From the NCBI GenBank assembly GCA_947184155.2, contig CAMXCT020000835.1, forward strand, positions 285,001 to 349,000: a stretch of DNA of 64,000 nt, written 5' to 3'. The notes under the pieces were generated by a model. That model was not told the DNA's origin. It worked only from the letters and a program-made list of their open reading frames with translations, and did not search any database. Positions within the stretch are counted from its first letter, which is position 1; each line of letters begins with the position of its first letter. This DNA comes from Cladocopium goreaui. Lineage: Eukaryota > Sar > Dinophyceae > Suessiales > Symbiodiniaceae. The translations under genes were made by a program, and so were the position numbers. Positions 19,258 through 62,022 of this stretch are shown here, in pieces.

Positions 19258-19315
19258 GTGAACTTGCAGCCAGCTAGCACGGAGTGCATATGACTGCCTT
19301 GAAATCACCCGATCA

Positions 19316-22529: not shown

Positions 22530-22545
22530 GCCTGAGACGGAAGCT

Positions 22546-33200: not shown

Positions 33201-33311
33201 GGTCGTTTTTGGTTGTGGTGGTTTTTTGTTGTTTGTTTGTTTGTGTTTTGTGATGATTTGCCTAAGTTTTTGGACCACACGTGTCCGTGTACATTCCTGC
33301 TTTTCACTGCT

Positions 33312-33368
33312 TACGCAATTGTAAGGACCGAGCCTAGTGCGAATCGGCCAAACCGGAGGAAAAAAAAA
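33312..33368 (+). mobile_element. SINE-like repeat S1
   Basis: Nearly identical to 22472-22529: TACGCAATTGTAAGGACCG, AGTGCGAATCGGCC and CGGAGG followed by A8. No clear target duplication was found. Confidence 0.8.
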
Positions 33369-33562
33369 TGCGTGCCAGGGTTTTACCCCCCAAACTTGTA
33401 GGACTTTTGGGGGCTTACCAACTTAATTTGACCACCCCAAGGTAGTTTAAGGGGATTTGTATGTGGGTACTCACTTGGTTGGTCTTATCAGGCTTGTGTC
33501 CCATATCCCTTCGTCTCCAGTCAATCCTGCTTCCATTGGTACTGATGCTTTGTTAGTGAAGA

Positions 33563-35835: not shown

Positions 35836-35953
35836 TTTTACTGTACTCGTTCAGTAATGTTTGTAGGGGGTACTTCATTATATGAAATAACCACTACATT
35901 TTGGCTCAAGGTGGCGTTCATTACATTTGCTTTGTGGTTCAACAAATTTTTTA
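35836..35953 (+). repeat. A1 terminal repeat (118 bp)
   Basis: Starts TTTTACTGTACTCG and ends AACAAATTTTTTA; identical by eye to A2 (43813-43930). Contains CATTTTGGCTCAAG at 35897-35910. Confidence 0.92.
35897..35910 (+). promoter_or_regulatory. spliced-leader-like sequence CATTTTGGCTCAAG in A1
   Basis: Identical to the last 14 bases of the dinoflagellate spliced leader (ending ...CCATTTTGGCTCAAG), followed by GTGG, which could read as a splice donor. Also at 43874-43887 in A2. It may be a relic of a trans-spliced transcript captured by retroposition, or a functional signal. Confidence 0.6.
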
Positions 35954-36019
35954 TTAGCGGCATAGGATCTGTTTCAGGGTTCATGTCTCAGATTCCGCTG
36001 TCAGCTTTTTCATGCGTCA

Positions 36020-38314: not shown

Positions 38315-38991
38315 CACATGCTTTAGTGGACCCTAGCAGTCTACTTGCGTGCAGCAGGATTCAGACGAATCACATGATCTGTTGTTTCACTTTGCATGGA
38401 TCATTCAATATGAGTGAAAACAGCAGCAGTGGAGCGGCGCGTGGACCAGACAGGCCCAATTTGTTTCCACTAGAGTGGACAACCGTGCAGTTTGATTTGC
38501 ATTTTGGTTTGAATTTTTTTTTCCCATTGAGTTCAGTTGCGTGTCATTCAAATGGGTCCACAGCTGGACAGACATGTATTGTCACTTGATCTCATGGGTT
38601 GAGATGCATTGCATTGGGATGCCAGCGCATCACTTTGAATTTGGTGATTCATATGCGTGTGCGCCTGAGACCAGTTGGCTCAGTTTGCAAAGGAGAGTTT
38701 GATCTCCTGCGTTGAAGTGCTTTGGTATGCAGGGTTTAGGCCAGACGGTCTTCCCACACAAATTTCCACATGTGGTCATATTCGATTTCATTTCAGCAGC
38801 TGTTCCATTGTTGCGGCAGGTCACGGTCATGATAGCCCTAGATACCTCAGGCAAACGTTTGCACAGCTTCACATTTTCAACTTTGCAGGTTTAACGTCTC
38901 AAACTTAGTTTTTTTTTTACATGTCACCCATTGCAATGCAAGTTACACTGCAACACATTTTCATGCGTTTCTCTTTCACTCTGTAGCTGCC
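38315..38991 (+). other. intergenic region of the YR element, no gene seen
   Basis: 677 bp between recombinase and Gag-like ORFs. Short frames lack motifs. It may hold the leader of a separate transcript for the following ORFs. Confidence 0.45.
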
Positions 38992-40200
38992 ATGCCTCTG
39001 TCAGAGACATTGGTGGCAGCTAATGTGCTTCCACAACACGTGGACCACCTATTGAATGAAGGGTGGACAGCAGAACATTTTGCTCTGTGCGCTTCATCTA
39101 TGGATGAATTGGACAATGTGATGGCCGAGCTTTTGGAGGGTCCGTTGACTCACCTCAACAAAGCTGCATTGCGCTTGGCATGGACGAAATGTCAACCAGG
39201 CAAATCGAATGTATCAGCAGACATGCCAGGCTCACAAGGGCCGACAAGTGCAGAAGGCAGTCAGCCATCTGGGTCTTGGTCAGAGACTTTTGCGCCCAAG
39301 CTCAATGCATTGAATGTCAGTCAGTTGAAGGCCACCTTCAAGAAGAATTACCCAGCAGAAATTCTTCTTCCGGAGAATTCCCCGAGCCTTCGTTTACTGT
39401 CTATGGTGGTACATCAGAAGCAAAAGATGGACTTCAAGTGGATTCCATGGAAGTTTCGGTTGACAGCAGCGAAATGCGATGAGCTGTTGGCCGCCAAGCC
39501 TCAGAAAGTTGCTCGTGCAGAGGGCTTACAATTGCATACAATCCTGATGGACGAGCCACCGGCCATGGAGATTGCCAACGGTGCCATTGGCATGAATGCC
39601 CTCCGGCAGATGTTTGAGACACACTCCTTTGCGATGGCCATGGCTGAAGTCGCTCACTTGTCTTCCTGGAAAGGGTACTATTTGAAATTTTTGTCATTGA
39701 TGACACATCGGTATGATCCAGACACGGGTCTTAGGGGACCCACTATCCTTGAGGCCCAAGCTGCAGACAAATCCTTGATGAACACAGCCATTGACTTGGT
39801 GACGGAGCGGGCTTGGTCGTGGGATGATGCACTTTACGAAATCACCCACATACGTGCAGATATCACCTCCTTGCTGCAGCCTTGCCCCAAGCTACCGAAA
39901 GCAGCTGTTGCTTCTCGACCAGAAGCTCCTAGTGGCAAAGGTAATTTTCAGACCTTTCGACCAGGACCTTACAGTAAGGGCCAAGGCAAGCAAGGCAAAT
40001 CAAAGAGTAAGTCGAAGGTACAGTGGTTGACTGAGACCACGGTGAAAGGAGAACGAAAGCAGTTATGTATGCGGTTTCAGACTGGCAAGTGCACACTGGG
40101 GGAGGCTTGCAAATTTCATCATGGCTGTGCTTTTCCGGTGGGAGATGGCGCTTGCAATAAGGCGCACGGGGCTTTGGCACATGAGAAGACTCCGCACTGA
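38992..40200 (+). CDS. Gag-like protein with CCCH zinc finger
   Basis: 402 residues. N-terminal two thirds are helical without a recognised domain; from about 300 it turns basic (QGKQGKSKSKSKVQW) and ends with a CCCH finger (CMRFQTGKCTLGEACKFHH, C-x7-C-x5-C-x3-H, about 360-380) and a second partial Cys/His pair (CAFPVGDGACNKAH). Position directly before the RT ORF and nucleic-acid-binding C-terminus support a Gag role. A CCCH finger in place of a CCHC knuckle is notable. Confidence 0.7.
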   Translation: MPLSETLVAANVLPQHVDHLLNEGWTAEHFALCASSMDELDNVMAELLEGPLTHLNKAALRLAWTKCQPGKSNVSADMPGSQGPTSAEGSQPSGSWSETFAPKLNALNVSQLKATFKKNYPAEILLPENSPSLRLLSMVVHQKQKMDFKWIPWKFRLTAAKCDELLAAKPQKVARAEGLQLHTILMDEPPAMEIANGAIGMNALRQMFETHSFAMAMAEVAHLSSWKGYYLKFLSLMTHRYDPDTGLRGPTILEAQAADKSLMNTAIDLVTERAWSWDDALYEITHIRADITSLLQPCPKLPKAAVASRPEAPSGKGNFQTFRPGPYSKGQGKQGKSKSKSKVQWLTETTVKGERKQLCMRFQTGKCTLGEACKFHHGCAFPVGDGACNKAHGALAHEKTPH

Positions 40201-40236
40201 CTTCCGAACAATCCAGTTTCACATGGATCAGACATT

Positions 40237-43200
40237 TTGTTGGATACCATTTCAGCTACGGCTATGGAGCACACTGCCTCATCAGCATCGGCACCGTGCA
40301 GTTCAGAGTTTGTGCATGTAGTTTCACCAATGCATGACAACACCGAGTCAGCTCTCCCCAAGGAGACACCTTTGGTTAGCGAAGCACCTATATATGAGGT
40401 ACCGACAGTTCCAGTTCCTAATGCAGTTTCCAGTTCTCAGAGCGCACCAGCATTGCCGGCCTCATCCAGCCAATCACCTCGAATTTTTTTGGATATTTGC
40501 TGTGGGGTGCAATCACCATTGTCCAAAGCCGTGATGGAATTCCATGGGGATACGTTGCGTTTTGATATTCTAATCAACACTGCTGATGATTTATTGAATG
40601 ATATCCGATATGAACGGTTGTTGCGCGTTTGCGCTTCAGGCATAGTGGCTTATGCAGGAGCTTCTCCAAGTTGCTGTGAGTATTCAAGGCTCAAACTCCG
40701 TCCAGGCGGACCACCTGCACTTCGAACCCCGGAGCACTTGGATGGAAAACCGGGTATATCGGGACATCAACTTCTCAAAGTTCAGGAAAGCAATTTAATG
40801 TTGGAAAGGTGTATTCATTGCCTGCGATTAGTGGTCTCCTCAGGAGGTCATGGCCACCTCGAGCAACCAAAAACGGCCATGAGTTGGATCGAGCCCATGG
40901 TACAACAATTTATACAGCAGGAATCTTGTGTATGTGTTTCAATAGCAGCTTGCAGCTTCGGCAAGGATTGGCACAAGCATTGGATGCTAGCATCAACGTA
41001 CCCGGAAGTGGCACGTATGGCCTCCGAATGTCTTCATCCGCCGGGCACACACCAACAGATTGCTGGTGCATTGTCCGAGACTGGCCAATTTTTGAGTCGC
41101 GAGACAGCAGAATACCCAGTTGCCATGGCGACAAAGTTTGGGCAAATCATCAAACCTCTGCTGACCAAGCAGGGTCTGGACATTAGCTTGGATCAGGTTG
41201 AACAATTTTTTCCGATCAAATCACAATCTGCAGTCCCATTTGCGCGCCAAGACGGGGGCGGGTTTGCTTCCCAGGCAGATTGGAGCGCAGGACACAAATT
41301 TGCGGACTGCTTTCAAACTTTGAGACGGAATTTTTTCAGACAGATCATGAAGGATCGCTTGGATCAAGTTATCTTGCGATCATTTACAAATCGAACGGAC
41401 GCCCCACCGTTTTCCATGGAGCAGGTTGCCCCATTCAAGAGTTTTCTGGACGAATTTTTGCTGGCTCAGGGTTTGGAACCCAACTGGTCGGTCCCCAAGG
41501 ACCAAAACTTGTGTCTCTTTATTCTCCAGCACATGTGCGTATGCATGGATGATCCGGATACATCTCTTTTTAAATACCTCATCGAAGGGGTGCCCTTGGG
41601 AATCCATGAGGAGATTACTCCATCTAGCTGCTTTCCGATTCAAACTCAGGAGACTGAACTTGATCCTCCATTGTTGACAGTGCACCACACGAACTGGAGC
41701 TCTGCTGATGAAGATCCTTCAACTGTTCAGGAACTTATTGATAAGGAGGTCGCTGCAGGTTGGGTGGAGATTTTTCCTGGTTCCTTGGAAGATGCACAAC
41801 AATTTTTTGAACATGGGTTAGCGATCGGCAAATTGGGCTTGGCGCTGAGCGATTCTCGCCCTCCAAGATTGGTCTTGGACTCGACAGTATGTGGAGTCAA
41901 TCCACAGTGTCGAATACCTGAGCGAGCGACGCTCCCTACAGCTCGTGATGTCATGCGGGCCTATCCTCTCCGACAATCGAGGAGAGAGCTGTCAGGTGTG
42001 TCATTTGATGTGCGTAGTGCACACAAGCAAGTGGCGGTTCACCCCAAGTATAGGGGTTACCTTTGTTTTCAGTTCAATGGCAAGATCTACTACTACAAGA
42101 ATTGTCCTTTTGGGGCTGTGGTATCCGCCCATTTTTGGTCACGTCTTGGCGGCGTCTTCCAGCGTTTATTTCACAGGATTTGTTACCTTCCTCATGCGTC
42201 ATTCATATACGTTGACGACATGCTTTGGATTCAAGAATCTCAGATCATTGGGTTGAGCGCTGCGGTCATCGCCATCTTGTGTATTCTTACAGGCTTGCCA
42301 ATCTCATGGAAGAAATGTGAAGTTGGTGCAACAGTTATTTGGATCGGGTGGTCCTTTAACCTTCGCTCTGGGTATATCACTCTCCCTGACGTCAAACGAC
42401 GCAAACTGCTGGAATTGCTGGAAAAGCTCTTGACCTCCAGTCACTGTTCCAAGAAAACGTTAGAGCGTTTTCTTGGTTTGGCTTTATGGGTTACACAACT
42501 TTGGCCAGAGATGAGGATTTGGCTGCACTACTTATACAGGGACTTGCACTCCATACCAGCATCCCAGTTCTCAGTGGACCCGGGTAGCTGGGAAGAACTC
42601 ATCGCATGTGTTTCCGATGACCTTATCTTTGTTCGAAAACCTCCATTTTCAGCGATTCCACTTCAAGGCCGTTTGGTACAGGTGCGGCATCAACCAGTTA
42701 AAACTCGATCCGATTTGCGCACTTGTGCATTGACGGACAAACGAATTTGGTTACGGGTCAGAGACCCCAATAGCCTCAAACGAAAATTATCTCCATCATC
42801 CATCCGTATGTTGCGGATGTATATGGCTTGGCTGGGCAGACTGTCCCCAGTTCGATCTATGTGGCCTAAACAAACCTGGTCTGGATTGTGTGTGGCAGAT
42901 GCATATGCAGCTGGTAGCAAATGCGGTATTGGCGGTGCCTTATTTTTTCCTTCCGGTTCATGTGCATGGTTCAGTTTGCAAATGACATCGAGCGATTTTC
43001 AATCTTTGCAAATCCCAATGCATGATGACTTGCAGACAGACATAGCTTCTTTGGAGACTTTAGCACAGATTGCGCTAATCTTCATTGCAGTTCGCTCTTT
43101 TCCTGGTTCTCGGATCCCTATCAAGATCCCGACATTATCAGACAACACGGGTGCCGAGGCTGTGTCAAATAAACTTTTTACAACTCAACTCCCATTGGCG

Positions 43201-43452
43201 CTTTTTTTGGAGAAACTCTGTTTGTTAATTGCAACCTCACACACGGAAGTCCAAGTGGGACATATCCCAGGGAAGGACAACGAGTATGCTGATGCACTGA
43301 GCCGCTGGGATAACAATGGTTCTCCTCCTCATAATTTTTTACCTTCAGACAGAGTTCAACTGCAGCTCGCAGATCTTTGGAACTTGGCCAGACAACCACA
43401 ACTTGTTCCTGCGAATACCTGGATTCCATGGCAACTGCCTCATGCTTCGTAG
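40237..43452 (+). CDS. methyltransferase-like / reverse transcriptase / RNase H polyprotein
   Basis: Frame opens at 40237; first ATG is at 40264 (MEHTASSASAP). About residues 84-270: FLDICCGVQSPLS (SAM-binding motif I-like) and GASPSCCEYSR (motif IV-like, Cys-containing), reading as a class I, possibly cytosine-5, methyltransferase-like domain; inference. RT: SFDVRSAHKQV (motif A, about 590), PFGAVVSAHFW (motif B), FIYVDDML (motif C, about 657), GLPISWKKC and WIGWSF. RNase H: CVADAYAAG (about 885), SLETLAQ, LSDNTGAE (968), KDNEYADALSRW (1012-1023). In DIRS1 the methyltransferase domain follows RNase H; here it precedes RT. All core acidic residues of RT and RNase H are present. Confidence 0.88.
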   Translation: MLDTISATAMEHTASSASAPCSSEFVHVVSPMHDNTESALPKETPLVSEAPIYEVPTVPVPNAVSSSQSAPALPASSSQSPRIFLDICCGVQSPLSKAVMEFHGDTLRFDILINTADDLLNDIRYERLLRVCASGIVAYAGASPSCCEYSRLKLRPGGPPALRTPEHLDGKPGISGHQLLKVQESNLMLERCIHCLRLVVSSGGHGHLEQPKTAMSWIEPMVQQFIQQESCVCVSIAACSFGKDWHKHWMLASTYPEVARMASECLHPPGTHQQIAGALSETGQFLSRETAEYPVAMATKFGQIIKPLLTKQGLDISLDQVEQFFPIKSQSAVPFARQDGGGFASQADWSAGHKFADCFQTLRRNFFRQIMKDRLDQVILRSFTNRTDAPPFSMEQVAPFKSFLDEFLLAQGLEPNWSVPKDQNLCLFILQHMCVCMDDPDTSLFKYLIEGVPLGIHEEITPSSCFPIQTQETELDPPLLTVHHTNWSSADEDPSTVQELIDKEVAAGWVEIFPGSLEDAQQFFEHGLAIGKLGLALSDSRPPRLVLDSTVCGVNPQCRIPERATLPTARDVMRAYPLRQSRRELSGVSFDVRSAHKQVAVHPKYRGYLCFQFNGKIYYYKNCPFGAVVSAHFWSRLGGVFQRLFHRICYLPHASFIYVDDMLWIQESQIIGLSAAVIAILCILTGLPISWKKCEVGATVIWIGWSFNLRSGYITLPDVKRRKLLELLEKLLTSSHCSKKTLERFLGLALWVTQLWPEMRIWLHYLYRDLHSIPASQFSVDPGSWEELIACVSDDLIFVRKPPFSAIPLQGRLVQVRHQPVKTRSDLRTCALTDKRIWLRVRDPNSLKRKLSPSSIRMLRMYMAWLGRLSPVRSMWPKQTWSGLCVADAYAAGSKCGIGGALFFPSGSCAWFSLQMTSSDFQSLQIPMHDDLQTDIASLETLAQIALIFIAVRSFPGSRIPIKIPTLSDNTGAEAVSNKLFTTQLPLALFLEKLCLLIATSHTEVQVGHIPGKDNEYADALSRWDNNGSPPHNFLPSDRVQLQLADLWNLARQPQLVPANTWIPWQLPHAS

Positions 43453-43554
43453 TTTCATGCTGACATCTTTCCGGTTTGTCAATTGCTGGATAATTCCCCT
43501 CTGAATAAAGGGGATAGTTGGCGTTATTATCCTCAATTGTCAATAGTTGTTTGT

Positions 43555-43812
43555 GGGGTATCAGATGCCATTGACAATTTTTGGCTGCTGTGTTGAATTC
43601 AGAATTCAACTGCGTTACAATAAATCCAGCAATGAAAAAAAGGAAAGATTAATAAATTCGTGCTGAAGATGAGAGGGACGGGAATTTCAAACTGTTGTCG
43701 TTTTTGCGTTTTCGACGTTTTTAATAAATTAATAGGTCTCGGCGTTTTTATATGTTATATCAACCTGTATGTGATATAACTGTTTAGAATGTAATGAATG
43801 TCCACCTTGAAC
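43555..43812 (+). repeat. B1 repeat (258 bp)
   Basis: GGGGTATCAGATGCC to CACCTTGAAC; identical by eye to B2 (44250-44507). Directly followed by A2. Confidence 0.92.
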
Positions 43813-43930
43813 TTTTACTGTACTCGTTCAGTAATGTTTGTAGGGGGTACTTCATTATATGAAATAACCACTACATTTTGGCTCAAGGTGGCGTTCATTA
43901 CATTTGCTTTGTGGTTCAACAAATTTTTTA
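43813..43930 (+). repeat. A2 repeat (118 bp)
   Basis: Copy of A1 abutting B1. The B1-A2 unit is the internal template expected in split-direct-repeat elements. Confidence 0.92.
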
Positions 43931-44872: not shown

Positions 44873-45523
44873 TTACTATTTCACTATGGGCTTGTAGCCC
44901 CAAAAATTTTGCTATGTTCCGCATTTGCGGTCGCTTGCCAACAGCCGAGAACAACCGCTTGCCAACAGCGGAGAGTAGCTTTTTGTACAGTTTTGTTTTT
45001 GTCTTCGGACCGTCTCACAGCAGATCACAGGCTGAGCGCTACCTGTGAAACAGAGTTGCATGTTCCGACACGAAGAAACTTTGTGTCTGTTTGTGATTTC
45101 ATGTTGTTTACGTGTCTACACAATGCTGTCATGCATGTTGACATGTACAACTAGTTCATATGTTTCATGCGTACTCCGCATGGCTCAAGCAAAGCCGCGT
45201 AGAAAAGAATCGCAGTCTTGCCGCTGACCGCAGGTGTTAGATCCGTAATTCAGGGCTCCCCTAATACGGGGATAGCTACCTCACCCCCCCTTAAGGTACC
45301 CCTTAAGCCCCCCCTTAAGGTTGCGCTGTTTGAAGGGTGAAGGGCCCAGTATGTAGTTTCTATAGCTAGGTCAGCCATAAGCCACCCAATTCGCACCTCA
45401 AGGCGATAGATAAGCTTCAATCTGTATTTTGTGTTTTTGTTTTTTAAACTCCACTTGAATTGGCCCTGCAACGAGGGACCCCGACCCCGGGTACCGGGTG
45501 TTCGGGGTTTCCCTAGCTCCGCT
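44873..45523. other. no gene seen
   Basis: 3' flank of the host-like gene. CTTGCCAACAGC occurs twice (about 44935 and 44959). A CCTTAAGG-rich stretch lies near 45290-45320. No supported ORF. Confidence 0.45.
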
Positions 45524-45740
45524 GATTCACTGGAAACATTTCCTGTCCTTGTACAAACGTATTTCCGACAGCTTATGCTCATGTAAGGACCGAGCCTTTA
45601 GCGCGACATCGGCCAAACTCGAGGAAAAAAAAAAGATTCACTGGAAACATTTGAACCCTACCGCCTTGACAGTATTTCACAGTCCTAGTTGTACACTGGG
45701 AACCTGACACCGGGTACCGGTTGTTCAGGGTTACGCCCAC
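45485..45740. repeat. two CCGGGTACCGG motifs upstream of copy B
   Basis: CCCCGGGTACCGGGTGTTC (about 45485) and CACCGGGTACCGGTTGTTC (about 45709), each followed by GGGGTT/AGGGTT, form a direct repeat about 224 bp apart. A similar CCCCGGGTACCGGTG precedes copy A (18903), and GGGGTACCC palindromes follow copy B (about 52680 and 52750). Confidence 0.5.
45542..45634 (+). mobile_element. SINE-like repeat S1 with 18-bp target duplication
   Basis: 93-nt insertion ending GGCCAAACTCGAGG plus A10, flanked by GATTCACTGGAAACATTT at 45524-45541 and 45635-45652. Its 3' half matches the S1 copies at 22472 and 33312; its 5' half is longer (CCTGTCCTTGTACAAACG). Confidence 0.9.
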
Positions 45741-45746
45741 GCCAGA

Positions 45747-46211
45747 ATGATACAGCAGCTCATGACAGCAAATAGGTTCATTTCATTGGCGTCGGATGAC
45801 CCTGACGACTCAGATACAGACATCGAGCCAACGGTACCAACCATCACCGAAAAAACCCGCGAGGATGCGTCAGCTGACAGTGACCAATCAGTCTACTTCG
45901 ACGCTCTAGAGGCCGAGGATGACGCTCCCTACTTCCTACAAGGAACTGAGCCTCCCCCAAGAGAGGAGTGGGAAATTGCCGCGCCCATAGATTTCTCCAA
46001 TGTCCAGGGGGTCTTGCAAATAAGCCACCAACTGGACGAGCTCTTCCTGTCGGAGAAAGAGATTGAAACCCCACTCGGTATGGATGACACCAAGCAGAAT
46101 TGGAAGTGGGCAGACGTAGGCTCTCGTCGAATGCCCCGATCACCCCTGACATACCCAACAGTAATGGTGGACGAGGGGAATGGAATCCGCTCGTCAGAGG
46201 AAGCAAATTAG
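45747..46211 (+). CDS. modular family copy B, acidic N-terminal segment
   Basis: 154 codons (MIQQLMTANRFISLASDD). Acidic, with DDSDTDIEP similar to the EDSDTDPDE patch of copy A. It overlaps the next frame by 112 nt, and a one-frame change is needed to join them, probably in 46100-46211. The GT-A-like domain of copies A and C is absent upstream. Confidence 0.5.
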   Translation: MIQQLMTANRFISLASDDPDDSDTDIEPTVPTITEKTREDASADSDQSVYFDALEAEDDAPYFLQGTEPPPREEWEIAAPIDFSNVQGVLQISHQLDELFLSEKEIETPLGMDDTKQNWKWADVGSRRMPRSPLTYPTVMVDEGNGIRSSEEAN

Positions 46212-49200
46212 TAGCAAGACCACACGTCGCACGACAGCGCAGCCTTACCAAGACGCAGGTATTGCTGCTCCAGAGCCTCTGGACGCCAGTGGAACTCCCT
46301 AATTACAACAACGACCACACACCCTGGCCCCAGACCTGCCAGACCGCCCACGTCCTCTGCGGACAGCAAGCTAGCCTCCAACTGCCCACTGCCCAAATTC
46401 TCCCTCTTCTTGAAGCACTGCAGCAACGACTGGGAATTGACCCTAGCAACGCAGAACTGGCCATTAACGAAGTTCTTGCCAGCCATGCCGATCCTCAATA
46501 CACTGATTGGAAGATCATTATCATGGATAACACCACCTGGCAACTCAATCCCGCTGACCCAGGGTCCCTGGATGTTCAGTGCACTGGATTGGGTGGAGGA
46601 GAACTCGACGACGAGTGGGATGTACTGCTAGCTTGCAAAAAGGAAGCACATGTTTACGGACCATCTCTCAGCAAGCAGGACGATTGGAATGCGAGAGCTG
46701 GCACAATTGCAGGAACCGCCCACACACAAGAATATTTGTTACTGCATATAGCCATGTTCCCAATTGGTGCCCACACCTGGTGCCATGTTCTTGGAGTGCC
46801 CGACGCTGATCAATTGCAAGCACAGATCATCAGCCGTGCCATGAAACTGCTACGTTTCTGTCCCATTACCCCGGCGCATAGGAAACCGCCATGGCCAGGG
46901 TACAAGCACGGCCTGCGACTCTTTACCAAACTGTTGGTTGCGCACCCATTGGTCGGAGTGTGCCTGCCCCCCGAAATCCGTCCGGCAGAGTATCTCAAAT
47001 TAACAGGTTACATGGTAGGTTCCCTCTTCATTCGAGGGCACAGTGCAGGCTCGTATGCAGGAATGGTATGGGAAGCCATCCTTGCTGAATTCCCGGACAT
47101 TGAAGGCAAAACGGTGCTAGCAGCCATTGCTCTGCCACCATCGCTTCTAACGACACACAGACTGTCCCATCACCGAAAGGTACACCTCATCCATCATGCA
47201 GATGACCGACTGTGTGTCTGGAACCCGTCCAATCAAGACATCAAACTGCTCCAACAACAGGGGTTCGCAATCACACACATCACAGGATGGCGAGTATACC
47301 TCGGCACTGCCCAACATAACTACTCGCACTGGACACGAGTTACCCTTCCAGAGGGACGACCGGACATGGCACAACTAGAGAGTACCCCAGGGGTGCTTCC
47401 CTTTGAAGTTTACTCACAAGCCCCCCTGCGGCTGATATCATGGTGCAGCTTTGAGCTCCCACAGGCAGCTAAGCGTCTCCTTCGTGAGTTAGCAATTATG
47501 TGCGAGCTACCAGAGACCACAACACAGGCACTAGTCAGCCACATTGCCGTACACAACTCACAGGTACGAACGGAGCAAGATGCAACTCAATATTTGGCCT
47601 CATTGGCAACTGTCACCATTGCGTCTAGGGCCAAATTGCTCAGTTATACTACCATGGTTCAACACTTCCTCGGCACCCTGCAACTGCCTATGGCTGTCTA
47701 CATGCTAGACTACTATCTGCCAATGCTCAGCCCCAATGAAGGCTACAATGAGACGGGGCTTACAATGCAAAGTGCTGGACCAATCCGTCAACCATGGCAA
47801 CCAATTGCATTCGAATTTCTTTTCAAAGGCAGCGAGTTTGGTCACTGGAGAGTTAAAGGAGGACAGGATGCATTCGCGTTCCGACACCCAAGCCTAGGCC
47901 AAACAGAAGTCTTCAGCCTCCTAGCAAGTGATGCACACCACCGCAAGGTTAGCCCTATAGGCACGGGAAGGCTCGTTGCAATGGTAGGAACCACAGATGC
48001 TCCAGCGGGCGACGTCAGAAACCTACAAATCCTTTTTGGGTTAGTCCTTGCCATCACGTCACGCTCATCCAAAAACAAGGATGAACTGCCTGCCACCCGA
48101 ATACACAGGCAGTGCAACCCCAGATTCATCGAAGTAGCCTTTCTCTCGGGGCCTGACATTGAATTTTTTGCCCATGAGCAATTCCTAGCCCTTCAAGACT
48201 GGTATCTTGCCTTTGGCCAAAGCCTGGAACCCATCGATGCTACCGTTCAGGGGAACGGAGGCCCACTCCCAGGCACCTTTTTCCTCAATACTATGTGGAT
48301 GTTTGGATGCACCAAGCCCACCAGAGAGGTGACTGCTGTCGCACAAACTCCCCCCTGCAGGTACCACCTTGGCCTAGGCATCTATAATGTCCAAACAGCA
48401 GTTGAAGGAATGGATGGCAACAAGCGATCACATTTCCTACATTTGTGCGGACAGTTACTACGCCTGGTACTTATCCCATGTCATGTGGAGGGTGAACCCC
48501 ATCAATGGACCCGCACAACTGCACTTTCCTTCGCTGCTGAACTAGATGGACATGTCTTGGGCACGCTATGTGCAGTGACAATGGCGTTACTCACCAATCG
48601 GCTAGACCTGTGTATTCAAGGACTCTTCGGTGCAGGCAAGTCCAAATCGATGGCAATCCTCATCCTGGCCTTGATTGAAATCGATACCACTGACAGCTTC
48701 AAGATTTTGTTTATATGCAAAGAAAACTCAGGCACTCGATCCTTTGCTGACCTGCTTCTATGGCTCGACCCCCCGTCGGGGGTGTTTGGGCGCATAGGTA
48801 GGTTGGTGGGGGACCAAGAACGGAACAAGAGCAGTTACTCCCACACTAAATTCGATATTTATCCCAGAGAAAGAAGGCAAATGCTGAACAAATGCCAGCT
48901 TGTGTTGGCTACAGGGGGTACGGTAGCTCAGGATCTCACCATGCAATGGTCCACGCTAGGAGGTTTCATGCAAGAGCTTTCCCTCATGGTCATTGATGAA
49001 GGGCAACAATATGGCACTGACCGGGAAATTGCAGTCATCAGCCTAATGAGGCAACAACCCCTAGTCCTGTGGACGGGAGATTCAGAGCAGACGCCAGGCG
49101 GCATTGATCGTGCAGCCCGTAACGCTAAACGATCCAGACAACTCCTCTTGTCCAAAAAACATGGGCTGCGAAGTGACCGGAATTATTATATGCCAGCTAA

Positions 49201-50110
49201 TTTAGCAGATGCAATGATCCGGCTGTTGGACGGCTCGTCCAATGAAGGCCTAACTACCCTCAGCCAAATCCTCCGTCGAGGCCAGCACACGTTAGGCCAA
49301 CTATGGACAAGCCAACTCTCGCCACAAGCTACGGAAGACCTAAAGGCAGCCAATACTGTTTTCCCAGGCCTGAGAGCACAATTTGAAGCCGCCCAGCCAC
49401 ATGCGCAAAGACAACCCTCCACTTTTGTGGACGCAGAACTACTGGCATGCACAACAGTCAACTTCCCACGGTCCCTGGTCCGCCTTGCCTGGATCTTGCA
49501 GCATGCCGCTACCCTCCTACCCATGGCTGGCGACATCCAAGCAGCTTCAAACCCTCAGACCGCCGGAGTAAGCGACATCCATGCCTGGGGGTTGATGCTC
49601 CCGTCCAGTTCAAGAGTCAGTCCTGTGACATACCACTCCGTAGTGGCAGTTAGATACCCTGATCTCTGCAGATTCATCAACGAAATGTGGGAACTGGGGA
49701 GTTTTGCCTCAGGAGGACTTCCAGACCGGCCACCGGGGTTCCAATTCGTGCTGTGGGACACCAATGCTAGAATTAGTGGGCTAGTGGCGACAGACTTGGA
49801 GACGCTCGTGTCAGAGGTACTCTCCCCCTTCCCCAGAAATGCCGGGTTTGCCGATGGGCTTTTCGTAATGACCACTGCAACAGACCACAAGAATAACTTG
49901 AACCGTTCAGTGCTTAAGAAGGATTATGCCCGCACTCTGCGCGTAGAAACAATAGCCAACTCAGCAGGAGGAACAGCACAAGTATCAATCGTAGCCCAGC
50001 CCAGTATTGGATTCCTGAACACCAATGCTACTCCAATGGTTCCCCTACAGAGGATACGGAAGACTGCCTTGGCCGAATCACTGTCGGACTCACCCGTTCA
50101 AAATCCTTGA
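46100..50110 (+). CDS. modular family copy B: alpha/beta-hydrolase plus SF1 helicase
   Basis: 1336 codons, the best preserved member. Hydrolase domain about 240-420: RGHSAGSYAG (nucleophile Ser, about 313), HHADDRLCVW (Asp, about 369), HNYSHW (His, about 410). Middle region 420-820 has no known domain. Helicase: motif I GLFGAGKSKS (about 841), Ia FKILFICKEN, LVLATGGT, motif II VIDEGQQYG (about 966), motif III WTGDSEQTPGG (about 992), and at the end VETIANSAGG and IGFLN, the segment preceding motif VI in UPF1-like proteins. Motif VI itself (GRITVGLTRS) lies in the next frame at about 50075, so a one-base frameshift occurs near 50045. Target (RNA or DNA) and hydrolase substrate are unknown. The family was not recognised by name. 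Confidence 0.75.
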   Translation: MEVGRRRLSSNAPITPDIPNSNGGRGEWNPLVRGSKLVARPHVARQRSLTKTQVLLLQSLWTPVELPNYNNDHTPWPQTCQTAHVLCGQQASLQLPTAQILPLLEALQQRLGIDPSNAELAINEVLASHADPQYTDWKIIIMDNTTWQLNPADPGSLDVQCTGLGGGELDDEWDVLLACKKEAHVYGPSLSKQDDWNARAGTIAGTAHTQEYLLLHIAMFPIGAHTWCHVLGVPDADQLQAQIISRAMKLLRFCPITPAHRKPPWPGYKHGLRLFTKLLVAHPLVGVCLPPEIRPAEYLKLTGYMVGSLFIRGHSAGSYAGMVWEAILAEFPDIEGKTVLAAIALPPSLLTTHRLSHHRKVHLIHHADDRLCVWNPSNQDIKLLQQQGFAITHITGWRVYLGTAQHNYSHWTRVTLPEGRPDMAQLESTPGVLPFEVYSQAPLRLISWCSFELPQAAKRLLRELAIMCELPETTTQALVSHIAVHNSQVRTEQDATQYLASLATVTIASRAKLLSYTTMVQHFLGTLQLPMAVYMLDYYLPMLSPNEGYNETGLTMQSAGPIRQPWQPIAFEFLFKGSEFGHWRVKGGQDAFAFRHPSLGQTEVFSLLASDAHHRKVSPIGTGRLVAMVGTTDAPAGDVRNLQILFGLVLAITSRSSKNKDELPATRIHRQCNPRFIEVAFLSGPDIEFFAHEQFLALQDWYLAFGQSLEPIDATVQGNGGPLPGTFFLNTMWMFGCTKPTREVTAVAQTPPCRYHLGLGIYNVQTAVEGMDGNKRSHFLHLCGQLLRLVLIPCHVEGEPHQWTRTTALSFAAELDGHVLGTLCAVTMALLTNRLDLCIQGLFGAGKSKSMAILILALIEIDTTDSFKILFICKENSGTRSFADLLLWLDPPSGVFGRIGRLVGDQERNKSSYSHTKFDIYPRERRQMLNKCQLVLATGGTVAQDLTMQWSTLGGFMQELSLMVIDEGQQYGTDREIAVISLMRQQPLVLWTGDSEQTPGGIDRAARNAKRSRQLLLSKKHGLRSDRNYYMPANLADAMIRLLDGSSNEGLTTLSQILRRGQHTLGQLWTSQLSPQATEDLKAANTVFPGLRAQFEAAQPHAQRQPSTFVDAELLACTTVNFPRSLVRLAWILQHAATLLPMAGDIQAASNPQTAGVSDIHAWGLMLPSSSRVSPVTYHSVVAVRYPDLCRFINEMWELGSFASGGLPDRPPGFQFVLWDTNARISGLVATDLETLVSEVLSPFPRNAGFADGLFVMTTATDHKNNLNRSVLKKDYARTLRVETIANSAGGTAQVSIVAQPSIGFLNTNATPMVPLQRIRKTALAESLSDSPVQNP

Positions 50111-52107
50111 CTCTGTTGGTCTCCCCCTTAGACATGATGGGGCTCATGGGCATGGCCCAGGTGGTCGCGACCATAGCATATGGCATCAGGGGCCTTCGAA
50201 GAGGAGAGACGACATGGGGCTGGCCCGACTTCGATGCCGACCCAGAACAGGAGAATCTTGCACAAATAAGTAGGTGGTCACTGAATTCTGCGCCTGCATG
50301 GGAATTCCCTCCACTCGCAATCGCCAACCAATACCAGGATCAGCAAACCAGCGAGGTGAAGCGAGCGAGATACCGTCTAATATTGGTTCGAGGGTCAGAT
50401 CTTCGCTGGCTGAACAGAGATCGCCTCCAGGAAGTCAAGACAGGCCTAGCAGCTCAACATAAATGGATTCCTGTTCAGAATCTCCCGTTCCCGGAAGTGG
50501 TCCTGTATGCCTACGCGGCTGACCGCACACCCTTTCCCACATATGTGTGCCTGCCTTCAGGACTGTACAAGGCGCGCACTGGGCAAGTTGTGGCGCAGAC
50601 CGGCCCAGAGCAGGAAATCCTGTCTTTGCCAGGTATCTACTTCTTTGATGGATGGCGGGTACACCCAACGTTACCAATCCCCGGCCACCTGCCACGCACC
50701 AAAGAGGCGCCAGTCCAAGATATCGCTCTGACTGCACCTGCACCTGGTACAGAACCTACTCGGTCGCCGGAAGAAGAAGCGAGAGACATCCTTGCGACAG
50801 CTGCTAAGAATCAGGCCGAGGATGGGCCAAACACAAGGAGAGCAGCAGTCCGCGCATGCAAGTACTTAAGGGCTATGGTCAACCAATATGAGTCCACCAT
50901 ACAAGAAGTGCATAAGGCAGCCCCCACCCATACACAAAGGAGCAAGGGCGCAGCAGGGGCAACTGCAGATTATCGACCACAAGGAGAGGCTCTCCCAGTT
51001 ATATCCCCAGAACTAACTTCAGAGTTACTGCATTGCTTGTCCACGCTACCCGACCCATGGCCCCTGGCTAAGATCACGATTGATATGGAGAAACCTAGCC
51101 AGTGGGTTTCCAAATTGTGCCGACTCTACTTTGCTGATGAATATGCCAGGCGAACAGTCGGACTGCCCTCACCTACACATGTCCCAGACATTGAGGCAGC
51201 GCTTCGAGCGGTCCAGGAAATCCTCCCAAAGCTTGAAGCAAGGATGATTGAATTTTTGGCCGAATGGTTAGTCACCTTTCTGATACCAGCAACGCACGTA
51301 TTGGAAGTGAGGGCACCTCATCTTTCCTTTATGTTGCTCAAAGAATACTGGTTTAGAGAACTATACCTCGGCTTGAAAGTCACAGCATCGTTTGACCGCT
51401 CTGAATCATACACGCGAGTCATAGATGGTCAGGTTAGATGCATCACTCCTGAAATTAAGCCGCAGAACCTGCAGGTCATCTGGAACGTACAGTTTATCAC
51501 TGTTTTTGTGCCGGCATGGATGATCCCTCCTGTATACCACAGCCTGCGCAGGGAAAGCATCAAAAACGCAAGTTCCGCCATTGCAATAGGTGTCCAGTCG
51601 GTCCGCCCCACCTGGTTTGAAGACATCGCAGTATCCAAAGAGACCACGCCTCAACCAAACCAAGGTCCCCAATGGCAGCAGCCCCAACCGCTACACGGGC
51701 TTAAGTTAGTCATCAAGGAAGAGGTGCTACCGATGAAAGACCAACCGGAATTCCCAGCACTTGCATTACTGGCCGAGCGTGGTTTACTCGCACCAGATAC
51801 ATGGAAGTGCAAACGTGCGCAGGTTAGCCTGAAGGCAACAATTGATGTTCCTATGCTAGGCACAATCATCGAGCAAAATGGGGATGGACTCCTTGAAGAC
51901 TCCCACATGCCAGTAGGATGGCCACTGCACATCGACGGTGCCGTCAGACAATGTTGTATTCACCGATCTGCGACCCAGCAAGAACTGGATGACATGCTCA
52001 AAGAATATGACATGAAAAGAGATTCAGTTGAAATAAACCATGACGCACCCCAATGGTCTCACAATGCAGTATGGAACAGAAGGTATATGGAACCGAAGAC
52101 AGGATAA
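50107..52107 (+). CDS. modular family copy B, continuation (helicase end and C-terminal region)
   Basis: 666 codons from TTG 50107, but the frame is open from before 49981 and includes helicase motif VI GRITVGLTRS just upstream of the listed start. It is therefore the continuation of the preceding ORF and not an independent gene. SPLDMMGLMGMAQ matches copy A. The C-terminal region aligns with copy A 29135-30780 (LPGIYFFDGW, KEYWFREL). It ends with a TAA at 52105-52107, after which the same frame stays open to 52662. Confidence 0.65.
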   Translation: MTLLVSPLDMMGLMGMAQVVATIAYGIRGLRRGETTWGWPDFDADPEQENLAQISRWSLNSAPAWEFPPLAIANQYQDQQTSEVKRARYRLILVRGSDLRWLNRDRLQEVKTGLAAQHKWIPVQNLPFPEVVLYAYAADRTPFPTYVCLPSGLYKARTGQVVAQTGPEQEILSLPGIYFFDGWRVHPTLPIPGHLPRTKEAPVQDIALTAPAPGTEPTRSPEEEARDILATAAKNQAEDGPNTRRAAVRACKYLRAMVNQYESTIQEVHKAAPTHTQRSKGAAGATADYRPQGEALPVISPELTSELLHCLSTLPDPWPLAKITIDMEKPSQWVSKLCRLYFADEYARRTVGLPSPTHVPDIEAALRAVQEILPKLEARMIEFLAEWLVTFLIPATHVLEVRAPHLSFMLLKEYWFRELYLGLKVTASFDRSESYTRVIDGQVRCITPEIKPQNLQVIWNVQFITVFVPAWMIPPVYHSLRRESIKNASSAIAIGVQSVRPTWFEDIAVSKETTPQPNQGPQWQQPQPLHGLKLVIKEEVLPMKDQPEFPALALLAERGLLAPDTWKCKRAQVSLKATIDVPMLGTIIEQNGDGLLEDSHMPVGWPLHIDGAVRQCCIHRSATQQELDDMLKEYDMKRDSVEINHDAPQWSHNAVWNRRYMEPKTG

Positions 52108-52662
52108 TACACGCTGCAGCAACTATGGGCTGATTCCGAGCCAGCCATTGGGAAGAAATCGTCCCCTTCGTATGATATTAAAGAAGGGGACATTTCACGT
52201 GCAGTAGCGGCTATCACAAATCTGCCATCTCCCACGCTGCCTGACAGTCCCTTCATCCGTGCATTGGGGACACCGGCAGCTCACAAGGCCCCACCGCAAA
52301 CTGGCACCCTAGCGCAAAGAGCCCTGGAGGAATGGGAACGCACCCTGTGTGAAAACAAGGCAGTGGCGATCCTTGCACAGATGCAAGCCGGCCGACCAGC
52401 CCTGATCCAGAAAGACGGCGGCGAAATGCTCATTGCCATTGTCCTTGATAAGCCACTGGCTGAAGCTAAGGCACTAGTGGACGACCCTGCAGCTTTCACT
52501 CGCGAAATGACTAGGATTCTGCTCGAAAAGCAAAGCCATCCACTTATTGCCCAAATGATGAAGCCAGCAGGAAGTGGTGACCCACCCCCTGCAAATACCA
52601 CAGTCAGTGGCACCGGCAGCCACGAGCACCCCAGCGCCAGTCAGCCCGTACAGTTCCAGTAG
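52108..52662 (+). pseudogene. modular family copy B, sequence after an in-frame stop
   Basis: Same frame as 50107-52107 with one TAA between them. Encodes YTLQQLWADSEPAIGKK and a helical region with ALEEWERTLCENKAVAILAQ, then PQFQ-like end. The uninterrupted 184 codons after the stop suggest a recent nonsense change, stop readthrough or a sequence error. Confidence 0.55.
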
Positions 52663-52892
52663 CCTCACGCGGGTAACGTGGGGTACCCACGGTTGCCACA
52701 CATGACAGGGAACCATTTGGTGATAGGGGTAGATAGGTGCTGTCACCATGGGGTACCCATGGTTGACTACTGCCTTGTGTAGCTGATGAGGTGGTAAGCT
52801 TGCATTTGTAACTGCGGTAAAGGAGGAAGGGGGAGGGGGGCAATTTTTAATAGGCCATTACATATATATCTAGGTACTGGTAGCGTAGGACG
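52663..52892. other. no gene; GGGGTACCC palindromes
   Basis: Contains GTGGGGTACCCACGG (about 52679) and CCATGGGGTACCCATGG (about 52748), two palindromes 70 bp apart just after copy B. Confidence 0.5.
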
Positions 52893-53420
52893 ATGTCAAA
52901 GTACATCAAGCCATGGCGCCCGTTGCTGTTTTGCTCAGCACAATCCAGTACCTTCATTGCTCGCATGCCGCCTGGCCAGATGAGTACAGCGCAACCGAGT
53001 GAATTGACATGCCTGCCTCATGAACCTCAGAGTCGCAATGAGGCACAGGATCTACTCCTTTTGCAGGACTATGTTTGCAAACTGACGCACACCCTTAGAA
53101 CACTGGAAGACACCCATGCCTTATTGCAACAAACTGAACTCCTTGAAGGCGTTCTCAGCGATCAAGATTGCAGAAACATTCGCACAGCCTGCTGTTGCAT
53201 CAGGAGTCTGCGCACTCGTGTGGAGGCCCGTGCCAATGTCACAGAACGTGAAGTTATAAGTCGACAGCTACAGCTCATGCAAGCGAGCGTACAACATTAC
53301 CCGACAGAAGAACTCAACACAGCTGACACAAGTTGCTTGTCCAGAACCTCGGCTGAACACTTTGATGACAGACCTGGTCCCTGTTCAGTGAAAAACGCTC
53401 GCATTCCTGTATCAATGTAA
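52893..53420 (+). CDS. small ORF after copy B, unknown
   Basis: 175 codons (MSKYIKPWRPLLFC; a second Met at about residue 30, MSTAQPSEL). Largely helical, with Cys residues clustered at CRNIRTACCCIRSLR. No known domain. No counterpart after copy A was found. It may be a real small gene or a chance frame. Confidence 0.35.
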   Translation: MSKYIKPWRPLLFCSAQSSTFIARMPPGQMSTAQPSELTCLPHEPQSRNEAQDLLLLQDYVCKLTHTLRTLEDTHALLQQTELLEGVLSDQDCRNIRTACCCIRSLRTRVEARANVTEREVISRQLQLMQASVQHYPTEELNTADTSCLSRTSAEHFDDRPGPCSVKNARIPVSM

Positions 53421-53659
53421 TTGAGCCAGCTACCATGGCCAACCGACCGCATCAAATGCAAGTGGTTGCAACACCTGTTAAGTTGACCGCTCGAGCAGCT
53501 CTACGCTTGCAAGCCTGCATCAATGCTGTCGAGCTAGCGATCATCGCTAACTCGATCGCATTGGATTCAGCTTTGAAAGCGGTATGCACCGCAAGAGTGC
53601 ACTACAGCTCCCAATGATGATGATGCTTGGAAAAGAACAACTGAGCGGACTCTGAGTGT

Positions 53660-54268
53660 GCCCTGAGTGCCGTAGCTATTGCTGTCATTTTCACCTTAGC
53701 TCTGTTTCACCTTCCCGTTTCACCATTTGTTTAGTTTCTCACCACTCTCGTTGCGACCCGGCGTTGTCGGTGTTTGCTTCGAAGTGCCTGGGTGTAATGT
53801 CATGCCTTATGGCTGCTCTTTGTGATCTCGGGGATCCTGGCTGGGGGGATCCCTGGTTTCCGCAACGAGCTTTGTTGCTTCTCTCACCCACCTACGTGGC
53901 CCTTTGGTGTGTTTTGTGTTTGCTCCGTTGTGTTTTTGGTGCTGGGCCAGTTTCAGAACGACACATAAGATGTCATCATGCATGATTTCCCATGCTGGTT
54001 GCGATCCCACTTCTCTTTGTTGTTTTTGTTTGGGTTTGGTTTTGGTTGTGTGTTTTTCCGGTTTTTGCTGTGTTGTTTTTGGTTTTCTCTTTTGTTTCCT
54101 TGTTCCCTTGCTGGGACAGTTTCTGGACTGCGTACTGGTCCACAACCGGCACTTTTGTGGCTTTCGACAAGGTGACAGCCCTGCATGTAAACTACAATTC
54201 AACTTTTTGCCGCGAAAGAATATGTGTAACGACCTGGCGGAAGCCATGAAGGCGTTGGACGGAAAAAT
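53660..54268 (+). repeat. SINE-like repeat S2, long copy
   Basis: Runs parallel to 18391-18870 (minus) and in part to 62540-63136. Blocks: TTTCTCACCACTCTCGTTGC, GATCTCGGGGATCCTGG, GGGACAGTTTCTGGACTGCG, and tail GGCGTTGGACGGAAAAA. About 600 bp. Confidence 0.65.
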
Positions 54269-54513: not shown

Positions 54514-55825
54514 TGTGGAAGTTTGTCACCCTTATGGGGTTGCAACTTGGCATTGGTGCGACAAGCCTTCATCTACAACAGACTTAAGTAGTTTCGATAT
54601 TCCTTTCTGGTACACGGAGGTGCAAGAGATGATTTGAGATATCGACCTGTGGGTCTGAGTGAATCTACACGGAGCTCAAGCTACTTTGAATACAGTTTGA
54701 AGCTTTATTTAGCTTTGTGACAGTGGGCGAATGCTTTCAGAAGCATTCGCTATACAGTTGAGTCGGGATGATATGGTTTCATCGATCTCGGAGGTTCCTT
54801 GACTCCTTATGGGAGTGTGAATCTGACGGAGATGGTTTTGGAACATCCGTTTCGATTCTTGACGTTGCTTCGTACATCTGAGATGTTTGTGAAGCCTTTT
54901 GATTACCTCTTGCGAGTATGTGAGATACTCCGGCATTGTGAGGACAATGCCTACGTATAGTATTCGACCTCTGGGTATTTGATCTGGAAGTCTACTTTGT
55001 GACCTTTGTATTTGTGACTTATTGCTGACGTTTGGTTATTGCAGTAAGCGAACTACTTTAGCGCTGTGACTGCTGATGACTGGATATTAGCTGAGAAGTC
55101 GAGCAGAACATTCTGCTCTCCACGGTGGTTTGGAGCTATGAGAAGACATCTCTGTGTGAAGAACTGTTTTGGAGATGGAACATGAGGTTCCCATGTTGTT
55201 CTGTATTGCAAGAGAATTTTGTAAAGGAATTTGAATGGATCATTTCGTTCTTGAATAGCCGTGTAACTAGTCTAGACGTTTGGTAGAGACTAGTAACACC
55301 GGCTAGCTGGTTATTTGCGTTTGGACGAGAACCAGTTTGACTTGAGAACTTTTGGAAATGTTTCTGACGTTTTGTGACTAGGTGATCTGTATATCATAGC
55401 AGTTTGGAATTGTTTCAACAACCTTTGAGGGAAGGTTGTGTATTGGAAACCTGGAATCGAGTTTCCCAGTCGAGACATCGGCTCAAGGGAGTGGTGTCAA
55501 GTGTTCCGAAGCGAACTGAACTGCAGTGTCACCTAGGGCATTTGAAACAGTAGCCAGCCACACTGGAACACCTTTTGGTTTGTGGCCGTGTGCCTGCCTT
55601 GGTTCCTGTTGACCTGTTCCGTTGTGTGTGGCGTCTGGAGAGAAAAGAAGGAGTCTGACGTGCACTTAGGAGTCAGGGTGGAACAAGTTCCTTTATTTTG
55701 ACATTGCAGAGAAGTAAGTAACTGCGGGGCCGCAACCACAGTAGGTGTTTGCGTCTGGCGTAGTGGGACAACGAAAGCGTTGATTTGGGTACACGAGAGG
55801 TGTACTTGGGTTTACGTTTCTCACA
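54514..55825 (+). repeat. element 2 5' LTR (1312 bp)
   Basis: Starts TGTGGAAGTTTGTCACC and ends GTTTACGTTTCTCACA. Lacks a short block present near 60722-60770 in the other LTR. Confidence 0.93.
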
Positions 55826-55838
55826 TGGTAGCGGAGCC
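55826..55838 (+). other. primer-binding site of element 2 (TGGTAGCGGAGCC)
   Basis: Immediately follows the 5' LTR; identical to the sites of elements 1 and 3. Confidence 0.9.
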
Positions 55839-60669: not shown

Positions 60670-62017
60670 TGTGGAAGTTTGTCACCCTTATGGGGTTGCA
60701 ACTTGGCATTGGTGCGACAAGCATTCATTGAGTCTTCAGTAGTGAAACTGGACTATGGGAAGGTGTCTACAACAGACTTAAGTAGTTTCGATATTCCTTT
60801 GTGGTACACGGAGCTGCAAGAGATGATTTGAGATATCGACCTGTGGGTCTGAGTGAATCTACACGGAGCTCAAGCTACTTTGAATACAGTTTGAAGCTTT
60901 ATTTAGCTTTGTGACAGTGGGCGAATGCTTTCAGAAGCATTCGCTATACAGTTGAGTCGGGATGATATGGTTTCATCGATCTCGGAGGTTCCTTGACTCC
61001 TTATGGGAGTGTGAATCTGACGGAGATGGTTTTGGAACATCCGTTTCGATTCTTGACGTTGCTTCGTACATCTGAGATGTTTGTGAAGCCTTTTGATTAC
61101 CTCTTGCGAGTATGTGAGATACTCCGGCATTGTGAGGACAATGCCTACGTATAGTATTCGACCTCTGGGTATTTGATCTGGAAGTCTACTTTGTGACCTT
61201 TGTATTTGTGACTTATTGCTGACGTTTGGTTATTGCAGTAAGCGAACTACTTTAGCGCTATGACTGCTGATGACTGGATATTAGCTGAGAAGTCGAGCAG
61301 AACATTCTGCTCTCCACGGTGGTTTTGGAGCTATGAGAAGACATCTCTGTGTGAAGAACTGTTTTGGAAATGGAACATGAGGTTCCCATGTTGTTCTGTA
61401 TTGCAAGAGAATTTTGTAAAGGAATTTGAATGGATCATTTCGTTCTTGAATAGCCGTGTAACTAGTCTAGACGTTTGGTAGAGACTAGTAACACCGGCTA
61501 GCTGGTTATTTGCGTTTGGACGAGAACCAGTTTGACTTGAGAATTTTTGGAAATGTTTCTGACGTTTTGTGACTAGGTGATTTGTATATCATAGCAGTTT
61601 GGAATTGTTTCAACCACCTTTGAGGGAAGGTTGTGTATTGGAAACCTGGAATCGAGTTTCCCAGTCGAGACATCGGCTCAAGGGAGTGGTGTCAAGTGTT
61701 CCGAAGCGAACTGAACTGCAGTGTCACCTAGGGCATTTGAAACAGTAGCCACACTGGAACCTCCTTTTGGTTTGTGGCCGTGTGCCTGCCTTGGTTCCTG
61801 TTGACCTGTTCCGTTGTGTGTGGCGTCTGGAGAGAAAAGAAGGAGTCTGACGTGCACTTAGGAGTCAGGGTGGAACAAGTTCCTTTGTTTTGACATTGCA
61901 GAGAAGTAAGTAACTGCGGGGCCGCAACCACAGTAGGTGTTTGCGTCTGGCGTAGTGGGATAACGAAAGCGTTGATTTGGGTACACGAGAGGTGTACTTG
62001 GGTTTACGTTTTTCACA
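60670..62017 (+). repeat. element 2 3' LTR (1348 bp)
   Basis: Same ends as the 5' LTR, followed by target duplication TTTTC at 62018-62022. Confidence 0.93.
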
Positions 62018-62022
62018 TTTTC

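Follow-up and report, generated by a model that had tools for sequence, protein, structure and literature searches.

What is an open reading frame (ORF) with parts resembling three different enzymes doing in several copies within one short stretch of a dinoflagellate genome? Such an ORF recurs in the 64,000-nucleotide stretch of Cladocopium goreaui DNA analysed here in full (contig CAMXCT020000835.1, positions 285,001 to 349,000; the window), for which an earlier note, made from the sequence alone, had proposed four copies, perhaps as part of a mobile unit. The count holds, with fragments at 2371-3384 and 16892-17635 (minus strand), copy A at 19262-30253 and copy B (Table 1), and the mobility is borne out by flank homology, reverse transcriptase (RT) matches and target-site duplications. 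The repeated ORF, here called ORF-D, is very probably the 3'-most ORF (~2,700 amino acids, aa) of a ~30-kb non-LTR (lacking long terminal repeats, LTRs) retrotransposon of the dinoflagellate, a long interspersed nuclear element (LINE) with the order ORF-A, ORF-B, gap, ORF-C, ORF-D and 3' untranslated region (UTR). All copies in the window are dead, and intact ORF-D is kept elsewhere in the genome.

Fold comparison, near-invariant catalytic columns, relatives with all parts in one chain and a low ratio of nonsynonymous to synonymous substitution (dN/dS, 0.05-0.20) support the union of GT-A-like, alpha/beta-hydrolase and superfamily 1 (SF1) helicase parts in a single protein, as the earlier note had proposed. 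One predicted structure contained the GT-A fold and the alpha/beta-hydrolase fold in the same chain, with Ser-Asp-His of the hydrolase in canonical places; the second predicted model, of the SF1 (UPF1/RecD-like) helicase part, was poor, and this part carries what we take to be helicase motifs I, II, III and VI. All three motif sets occurred in one chain in 10 of 231 proteins, in identical order in each and all of copy-B type, which contradicts the possibility that the domains are always separate genes. Columns of the GT-A part were close to invariant for DxD (D254 in 56/57 and D256 in 55/57), NAG (63/63, 63/63 and 62/62) and EQG (64/64, 63/64 and 63/64), motifs that we assume to have their GT8-like meaning; by fold and motifs this part is a putative GT8-like glycosyltransferase with predicted transferase activity. 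Family databases returned little: no SF1 family exceeded its Pfam cut-off in ORF-D (the AAA_19 and AAA_30 matches with bit scores shown fall below), the Pfam scan yielded weak matches alone and NCBIfam a single match at E 0.1, PDB searches by sequence and by profile gave no named family, and pattern-based scans of IMG/VR and of GTDB contigs yielded no relative. A precomputed DEAD label (PF00270, an SF2 family) is attached to 3 of 116 relatives. The relative symbB.v1.2.034242.t1 is presumably a Breviolum (Symbiodinium) minutum gene model. In keeping with the suggestion that the combination has no named family, a limited check of one library of open-access papers found none naming a GT-A, alpha/beta-hydrolase and SF1 helicase fusion.

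ORF-D is also abundant and conserved in the window's own genome (1,165,616,438 bases, 1.17 Gb). Among 4,246 candidate places of copy-B type, 35 were scored, a lower bound that includes the window's own, and in 10 of these 35 a frame of 2,600-2,744 aa is uninterrupted by stops; these 10 formed the set for flank comparison. Copy-A-type places (60 scored of 3,319 candidates) reach stop-free frames of up to 2,562 aa. The 1,340 open codons of copy B are not due to chance, being matched by 116 proteins and by at least 34 further places in the genome at 88-95% identity. Across 26 non-independent pairs from 8 genome copies, mean dN/dS was 0.09; of 28 pairs, one that overlapped by fewer than 500 codons was skipped, and the nearly identical pair L004/L005 gave no ratio. 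These values show strong purifying selection, by which ORF-D is kept working in the lineages that jump, and together with the near-invariant columns they uphold the view that the catalytic blocks are real and selected. The contig pairs C906/C1450 and C4976/C2985 are near-identical over kilobases, as haplotigs, assembly duplicates or recent segmental copies, and copy counts may be inflated.

ORF-D is not a standalone gene family but belongs to one ~30-kb unit. Shared flanks, for which a test had been suggested, extend ~20 kb further upstream of ORF-D across other ORFs: homology spans the whole fetched stretch in 7 of the 10 copies and ends early in C3710, C6053 and C946, and in the comparison of C4976 with C3402 it can be followed as far as ~20.8 kb upstream of the reference point, C1425 and C1299 stopping sooner. 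One element is uninterrupted (C4976:273405-303689, 30.3 kb) and another includes a nested stretch of ~8.9 kb (C3402:505173-544944, 39.8 kb). In C4976, ORF-A (2,419 aa stop to stop) contains a methyltransferase-like stretch with GSPCQ and LLENAG, presumably typical methyltransferase motifs, for which a PDB sequence search gave no match. ORF-B combines an AP endonuclease (Exo_endo_phos, 39.9 bits, cut-off 24.5) with an RT (RVT_1, 50.1 bits, cut-off 29.6); the C4976 copy matched RVT_1 (E 3.6e-13), Exo_endo_phos (E 5.3e-10) and the RNase-H-like RVT_3 (E 9.6e-5), all above cut-offs, and ORF-B is stop-free over 2,091-2,097 aa in 12 of the 37 RT loci listed. A 4.3-kb gap separates it from ORF-C (552-553 aa, no Pfam family), which is followed by ORF-D, open across 2,736 aa in C4976, and a 3' UTR with a conserved end. 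At four of the 37 listed RT loci, picked without regard to ORF-D, ORF-C was found each time at the expected place with 83-97% identity, and at least 5 of the 37 (C4976, C2985, C1299, C3402 and C1180) have one of the 35 listed ORF-Ds 11-20 kb downstream on the same strand. Gene models fuse ORF-D relatives to an endonuclease (P0051), a methyltransferase-like part (P0113) and a copia integrase (P0116); although such parts could pass for chance neighbours, two of the three belong, on comparison by eye, to the same element.

Two stretches of the upstream ORFs drew attention by eye. The N-terminal ~1,400 aa of ORF-A (L037:3-4277, minus strand), which matched nothing in Pfam and no PDB sequence well, contain a stretch MCYAVTALRVL ... 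HHFLLIERW that resembles ubiquitin hydrolase, and ~350 aa behind the RNase-H-like part of ORF-B (L031:677-3322, minus strand; CEVDLKGSFYELV ... LVWLHDGFLVA) recall polymerase motifs A and C.

The ends of the unit identify how it moves. Seven of the 10 copies share a sharp 3' end (...AACGACCTGGCGGAAGCCAT..GGCGTTGGA.GGAAAAAAA) that closes in 7-8 A, and in C3402 a 21-bp target-site duplication (ATTCTGCAGTCTGCCTATTCT) abuts the element on both sides, immediately ahead of the point where homology begins and immediately behind the 3' end. Because this duplication brackets the whole unit, the unit was inserted there as one, and because it is joined by the common 3' end and by variable 5' truncation, the class of the giant element is LINE, a target-primed retrotransposon. 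For ORF-D, movement by a rolling-circle, DIRS or LTR mechanism was weighed and rejected; the DIRS-like element upstream of copy B is a separate neighbour.

The same observations bear on whether the unit is composite, that is, a LINE resembling SymbioLINE-Dnmt lying beside a separate ORF-C/ORF-D element and sometimes copied together with it. The gap between ORF-B and ORF-C holds an A-run at which the C1425 element starts, with a 16-bp target-site duplication of its own, and ORF-C and ORF-D may thus also move as their own unit. Nevertheless, we consider a composite unlikely, given the duplication around the whole unit in C3402, the near-constant distance of ORF-C in 4/4 RT loci, the broadly similar degree to which both halves differ between copies, and family scans that recognised no transposition enzyme in ORF-C or ORF-D. 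Several points besides the C1425 start weigh against a single ~30-kb LINE: no exact duplication of at least 11 nt was present in 5 of the 7 copies examined (C1299, C4976, C3295, C6053 and C3710); C4976, the sole uninterrupted full-length copy seen, is among these and has ORF-B in two frames (1,254 + 882 aa); C2985, 99.6% identical to C4976 over 16 kb, perhaps represents one and the same insertion or else a segmental copy, and has an insertion and stops short of the common 3' end; C32 and C946 lose 3' homology earlier; and the methyltransferase-like stretch of ORF-A falls below the PF00145 cut-off (E 0.19, 11.6 of 22 bits).

The 5' end introduces a further explanation, in which a host gene family grew in number as its mRNA was retroposed, the machinery being borrowed from LINEs. 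The C3402 element starts CCGTAACCCATTGGCTCAAGCC..., and the same repeats occur in the C4976 element; in sequence they resemble several copies in a row of the dinoflagellate spliced leader, which we take to be CCGTAGCCATTTTGGCTCAAG. In the available part of one study, spliced-leader remnants are described as tags of dinoflagellate retrogenes (PMC12014239), and those ORF-D copies that have one open frame are intron-free. Contrary to what this explanation would lead one to expect, however, an RT ORF lies inside the same insertion as ORF-D in C3402, and a host origin of this kind is extremely improbable. An origin as endogenous copies of a large-polyprotein virus is equally improbable: ORF-D is polyprotein-like with no Pfam family of its own, and a glycosyltransferase together with an SF1 helicase occurs in endornaviruses, but three pattern-based scans of viral contigs (IMG/VR) found no relative, the ORFs scanned matched neither a capsid nor an RNA-dependent RNA polymerase family, and LINE enzymes and target-site duplications account for the copies.

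Read as remains of the giant LINE, the copies in the window become interpretable. Copy B contains ORFs at 45747-46211, 46088-50110, 50107-52107 and 52264-52662 (stop to stop 52108-52662). Of the motif series that the earlier note had ascribed to it, GHSAGS, GLFGAGKS and DEGQQ do share one frame, whereas VGLTRS sits in the next ORF, beyond a frameshift near 50029 that is recognised because relatives P0001, P0002 and P0029 hold motifs I-III and VGLTRS in one frame. The GT-A part had likewise been read as a feature of copy A; its DSD is present there, but its absence from copy B reflects an internal deletion at ~46190-46205, since P0001 and P0114, among other relatives, have retained the part. 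At the deletion and frameshift sites alike, P0001, P0029 and others run on without a break. Around the GGTACC sites of copy B, one of three stretches folds better than most shuffles (z -2.39). Copy A represents a second lineage, with ~30% protein identity to copy B and, against the fragment at 2371, pS 0.80 and pN 0.30 over 198 codons. Because ORF-C remnants lie upstream of its ORF-D, the ORF-C/ORF-D order probably predates the split between A and B lineages. The units of the insertion in copy A measure ~2.05-2.24 kb each and contain many TTTTCATATGTACAAACC inverted repeats. Shuffles predict no occurrence of the element's 3'-terminal motif in the window; there are five, one of them closing copy B.

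Table 1. Positions of ORF-D copies, motifs and associated features in the window
Feature	Position	Strand	Basis
Copy-A-type fragment, N-terminus and GT-A part	2371-3384	+	47% over 346 aa, E 4e-90
Copy-A-type helicase fragment	16892-17635	-	Direct comparison, E 2.8e-6, 41% over 97 aa; missed by profile search
Further 3'-terminal motif, belonging to the element or to short repeats that have it too	17903-17934	+	
Further 3'-terminal motif	18122-18153	-	
Copy A: remnants of ORF-C (553-aa ORF) directly upstream of ORF-D	18237-19254	+	56%/39 aa (18237-18353), 41%/132 aa (18882-19244), 58%/62 aa (19069-19254)
Further 3'-terminal motif; surrounding 18391-18746 (-) is a 3'-UTR fragment like that of copy B	18402-18433	-	
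Copy A: second-lineage ORF-D with GT-A part (DSD 20021-20029), frameshifted	19262-25390	+	tblastn and profile matches span 19262-25265, several frames
Two tandem ~2.1-kb units (3.7-kb insertion) interrupting copy A	25391-29116	.	
Copy A: C-terminal part of ORF-D resumes	29117-30253	+	Direct comparison, E 7e-7 to P0107, 23% over 333 aa
Copy B: dead copy of the giant LINE, truncated at the 5' end	45355-54266	+	Homology to 10 compared genome copies from ~45355; 5' junction approximate, ~390 bp upstream of the big ORF
Copy B: N-terminal piece of ORF-D, acidic N-terminus; frame stops past internal deletion	45747-46208	+	85% identity to P0001 residues 1-148
Copy B: ORF-D, alpha/beta-hydrolase and first part of SF1 helicase	46190-50035	+	Protein and profile comparison
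GHSAGS, hydrolase nucleophile elbow	47036-47053	+	Sequence; aligned Ser 33/37
GLFGAGKS, Walker A	48620-48643	+	Sequence; K 30/31
DEGQQ, helicase motif II	48995-49009	+	Sequence; D 29/29, E 28/29
Copy B: continuation of ORF-D in other frame, with helicase motif VI and a C-terminal region that has no assigned fold	50029-52104	+	
VGLTRS, helicase motif VI, which in copy B does not share the frame of motifs I-III	50083-50100	+	Sequence; T and R 27/27
Copy B: C-terminal end of ORF-D, last residues VQFQ, behind in-frame TAA (52105-52107)	52108-52659	+	
3'-terminal motif of the element, AACGACCTGGCGGAAGCCATGAAGGCGTTGGA, then short A-run	54228-54259	+	0 mismatches; 0 expected in shuffles
Further 3'-terminal motif	63095-63126	+	

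The ORF-D copies lie among other mobile sequences, including copia-like and RT/CCCH ORFs, and the window also holds spliced-leader-like sites, all of which gives it the look of a dinoflagellate genome. The DIRS-like element (35831-43930, plus strand) has a tyrosine-recombinase-like ORF (35966-38314, recognised by eye, no Pfam match), a CCCH ORF and an RT ORF one stop apart (RVT_1 E 1.3e-7), and direct repeats at 35831-35953 and 43808-43930 that each hold ACATTTTGGCTCAAG, one mismatch from the spliced-leader pattern. A copia-like ORF of 2,365 aa (8751-15848, minus strand; RVT_2 E 2.6e-15, zinc knuckle) is bracketed by repeats reported at 300 nt (6675-6974 and 15880-16179); since these are identical, the insertion is probably recent. 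A short repeat with an A-tail, like a short interspersed nuclear element, lies at 22469-22534, 33309-33374 and about 45542-45634, two copies having target-site duplications of 17 and 18 nt (AGCCTGAGACGGAAGCT; GATTCACTGGAAACATTT). Direct repeats at 54572-55826 and 60766-62018, 6.2 kb apart and 99% identical, are perhaps the ends of a further element.

Among known systems, the 5' half of the giant element is closest in layout to SymbioLINE-Dnmt of Symbiodinium, for which the available text describes a methyltransferase ORF followed by an endonuclease-RT-RNase H ORF, target-site duplications, no poly-A, purifying selection and several subfamilies (de Mendoza et al. 2018, PMC5890265). Both share this ORF layout, with a methyltransferase-like ORF in the giant element, as well as target-site duplications and purifying selection; the giant element goes beyond it by a ~16-kb stretch behind ORF-B (gap, ORF-C of 553 aa, ORF-D of ~2,700 aa, 3' UTR), and the main text of that paper makes no mention of helicase, glycosyltransferase, ubiquitin, ORF3 or spliced leader. 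The element looks like this family by ORF layout, and membership is not claimed, CG depletion not being clear (CpG observed/expected was 0.637 for the element part of C4976 and 0.665 for the window, with 0.628 and 0.415 for two stretches nearby). Terminons, or Athena elements, of rotifers are comparable in size (up to 40 kb) and in accessory enzyme ORFs, GDSL esterases included, but are Penelope-like and telomeric with accessory functions on other ORFs, and the descriptions available contain no GT-A, hydrolase and helicase fusion (PMC6431247, PMC5408684). CR1/L2 LINEs likewise encode a hydrolase, according to the part of PMC5408684 at hand, although theirs is an SGNH esterase in ORF1 upstream of the RT, whereas that of the giant LINE is an alpha/beta-hydrolase fused to a helicase behind the RT. 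With the SF1B helicases UPF1, IGHMBP2, Dna2 and RecD, ORF-D shares motifs I, II, III and VI and, as far as the poor model goes, perhaps a RecA-like fold; it differs in its unusual motif V (SAGGTA), its weak Pfam matches and its lodging in a retrotransposon protein.

These features suggest how ORF-D would act in a cycle of target-primed reverse transcription. The element RNA would receive a spliced leader by trans-splicing, ORF-B would nick the target and start copying at the conserved 3' tail of the RNA, and with every full round the leader would be copied back into DNA, such that leader relics build up. With less confidence, ORF-D may travel in the same ribonucleoprotein particle (RNP) as ORF-B, where the helicase part might aid the RT through a very long RNA or clear the RNA/cDNA hybrid. 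Aid in copying or freeing the ~30-kb RNA is the likeliest role of the largest conserved part of ORF-D, a suggestion that we put forward tentatively, at somewhat less than even confidence. By analogy, the hydrolase part may help to localise the RNP, a role that has been proposed for esterase ORFs in CR1-like LINEs, and the GT-A part may modify a host protein or DNA. 5-Hydroxymethyluracil is abundant in dinoflagellate DNA, and a bolder, quite improbable scheme would have a spliced-leader-capped ~30-kb LINE bring its own DNA-marking and remodelling complex, in which the helicase opens the cDNA and ORF-A and the GT-A part mark it (e.g. by glycosylating 5-hydroxymethyluracil), leaving new copies hidden from, or tuned to, the host.

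LINEs are usually described as several times shorter than ~30 kb. An element of this length raises the question of how target-primed reverse transcription completes it and whether a resident helicase enables this. The published SymbioLINE-Dnmt layout is apparently extended by two ORFs, and a three-enzyme protein with dN/dS near 0.1 is added to the functions that retrotransposons carry. A set of unnamed multi-copy "genes" annotated in dinoflagellates is explained as transposon parts, and the spliced-leader relics located exactly at the 5' end might allow rounds of retrotransposition to be counted.

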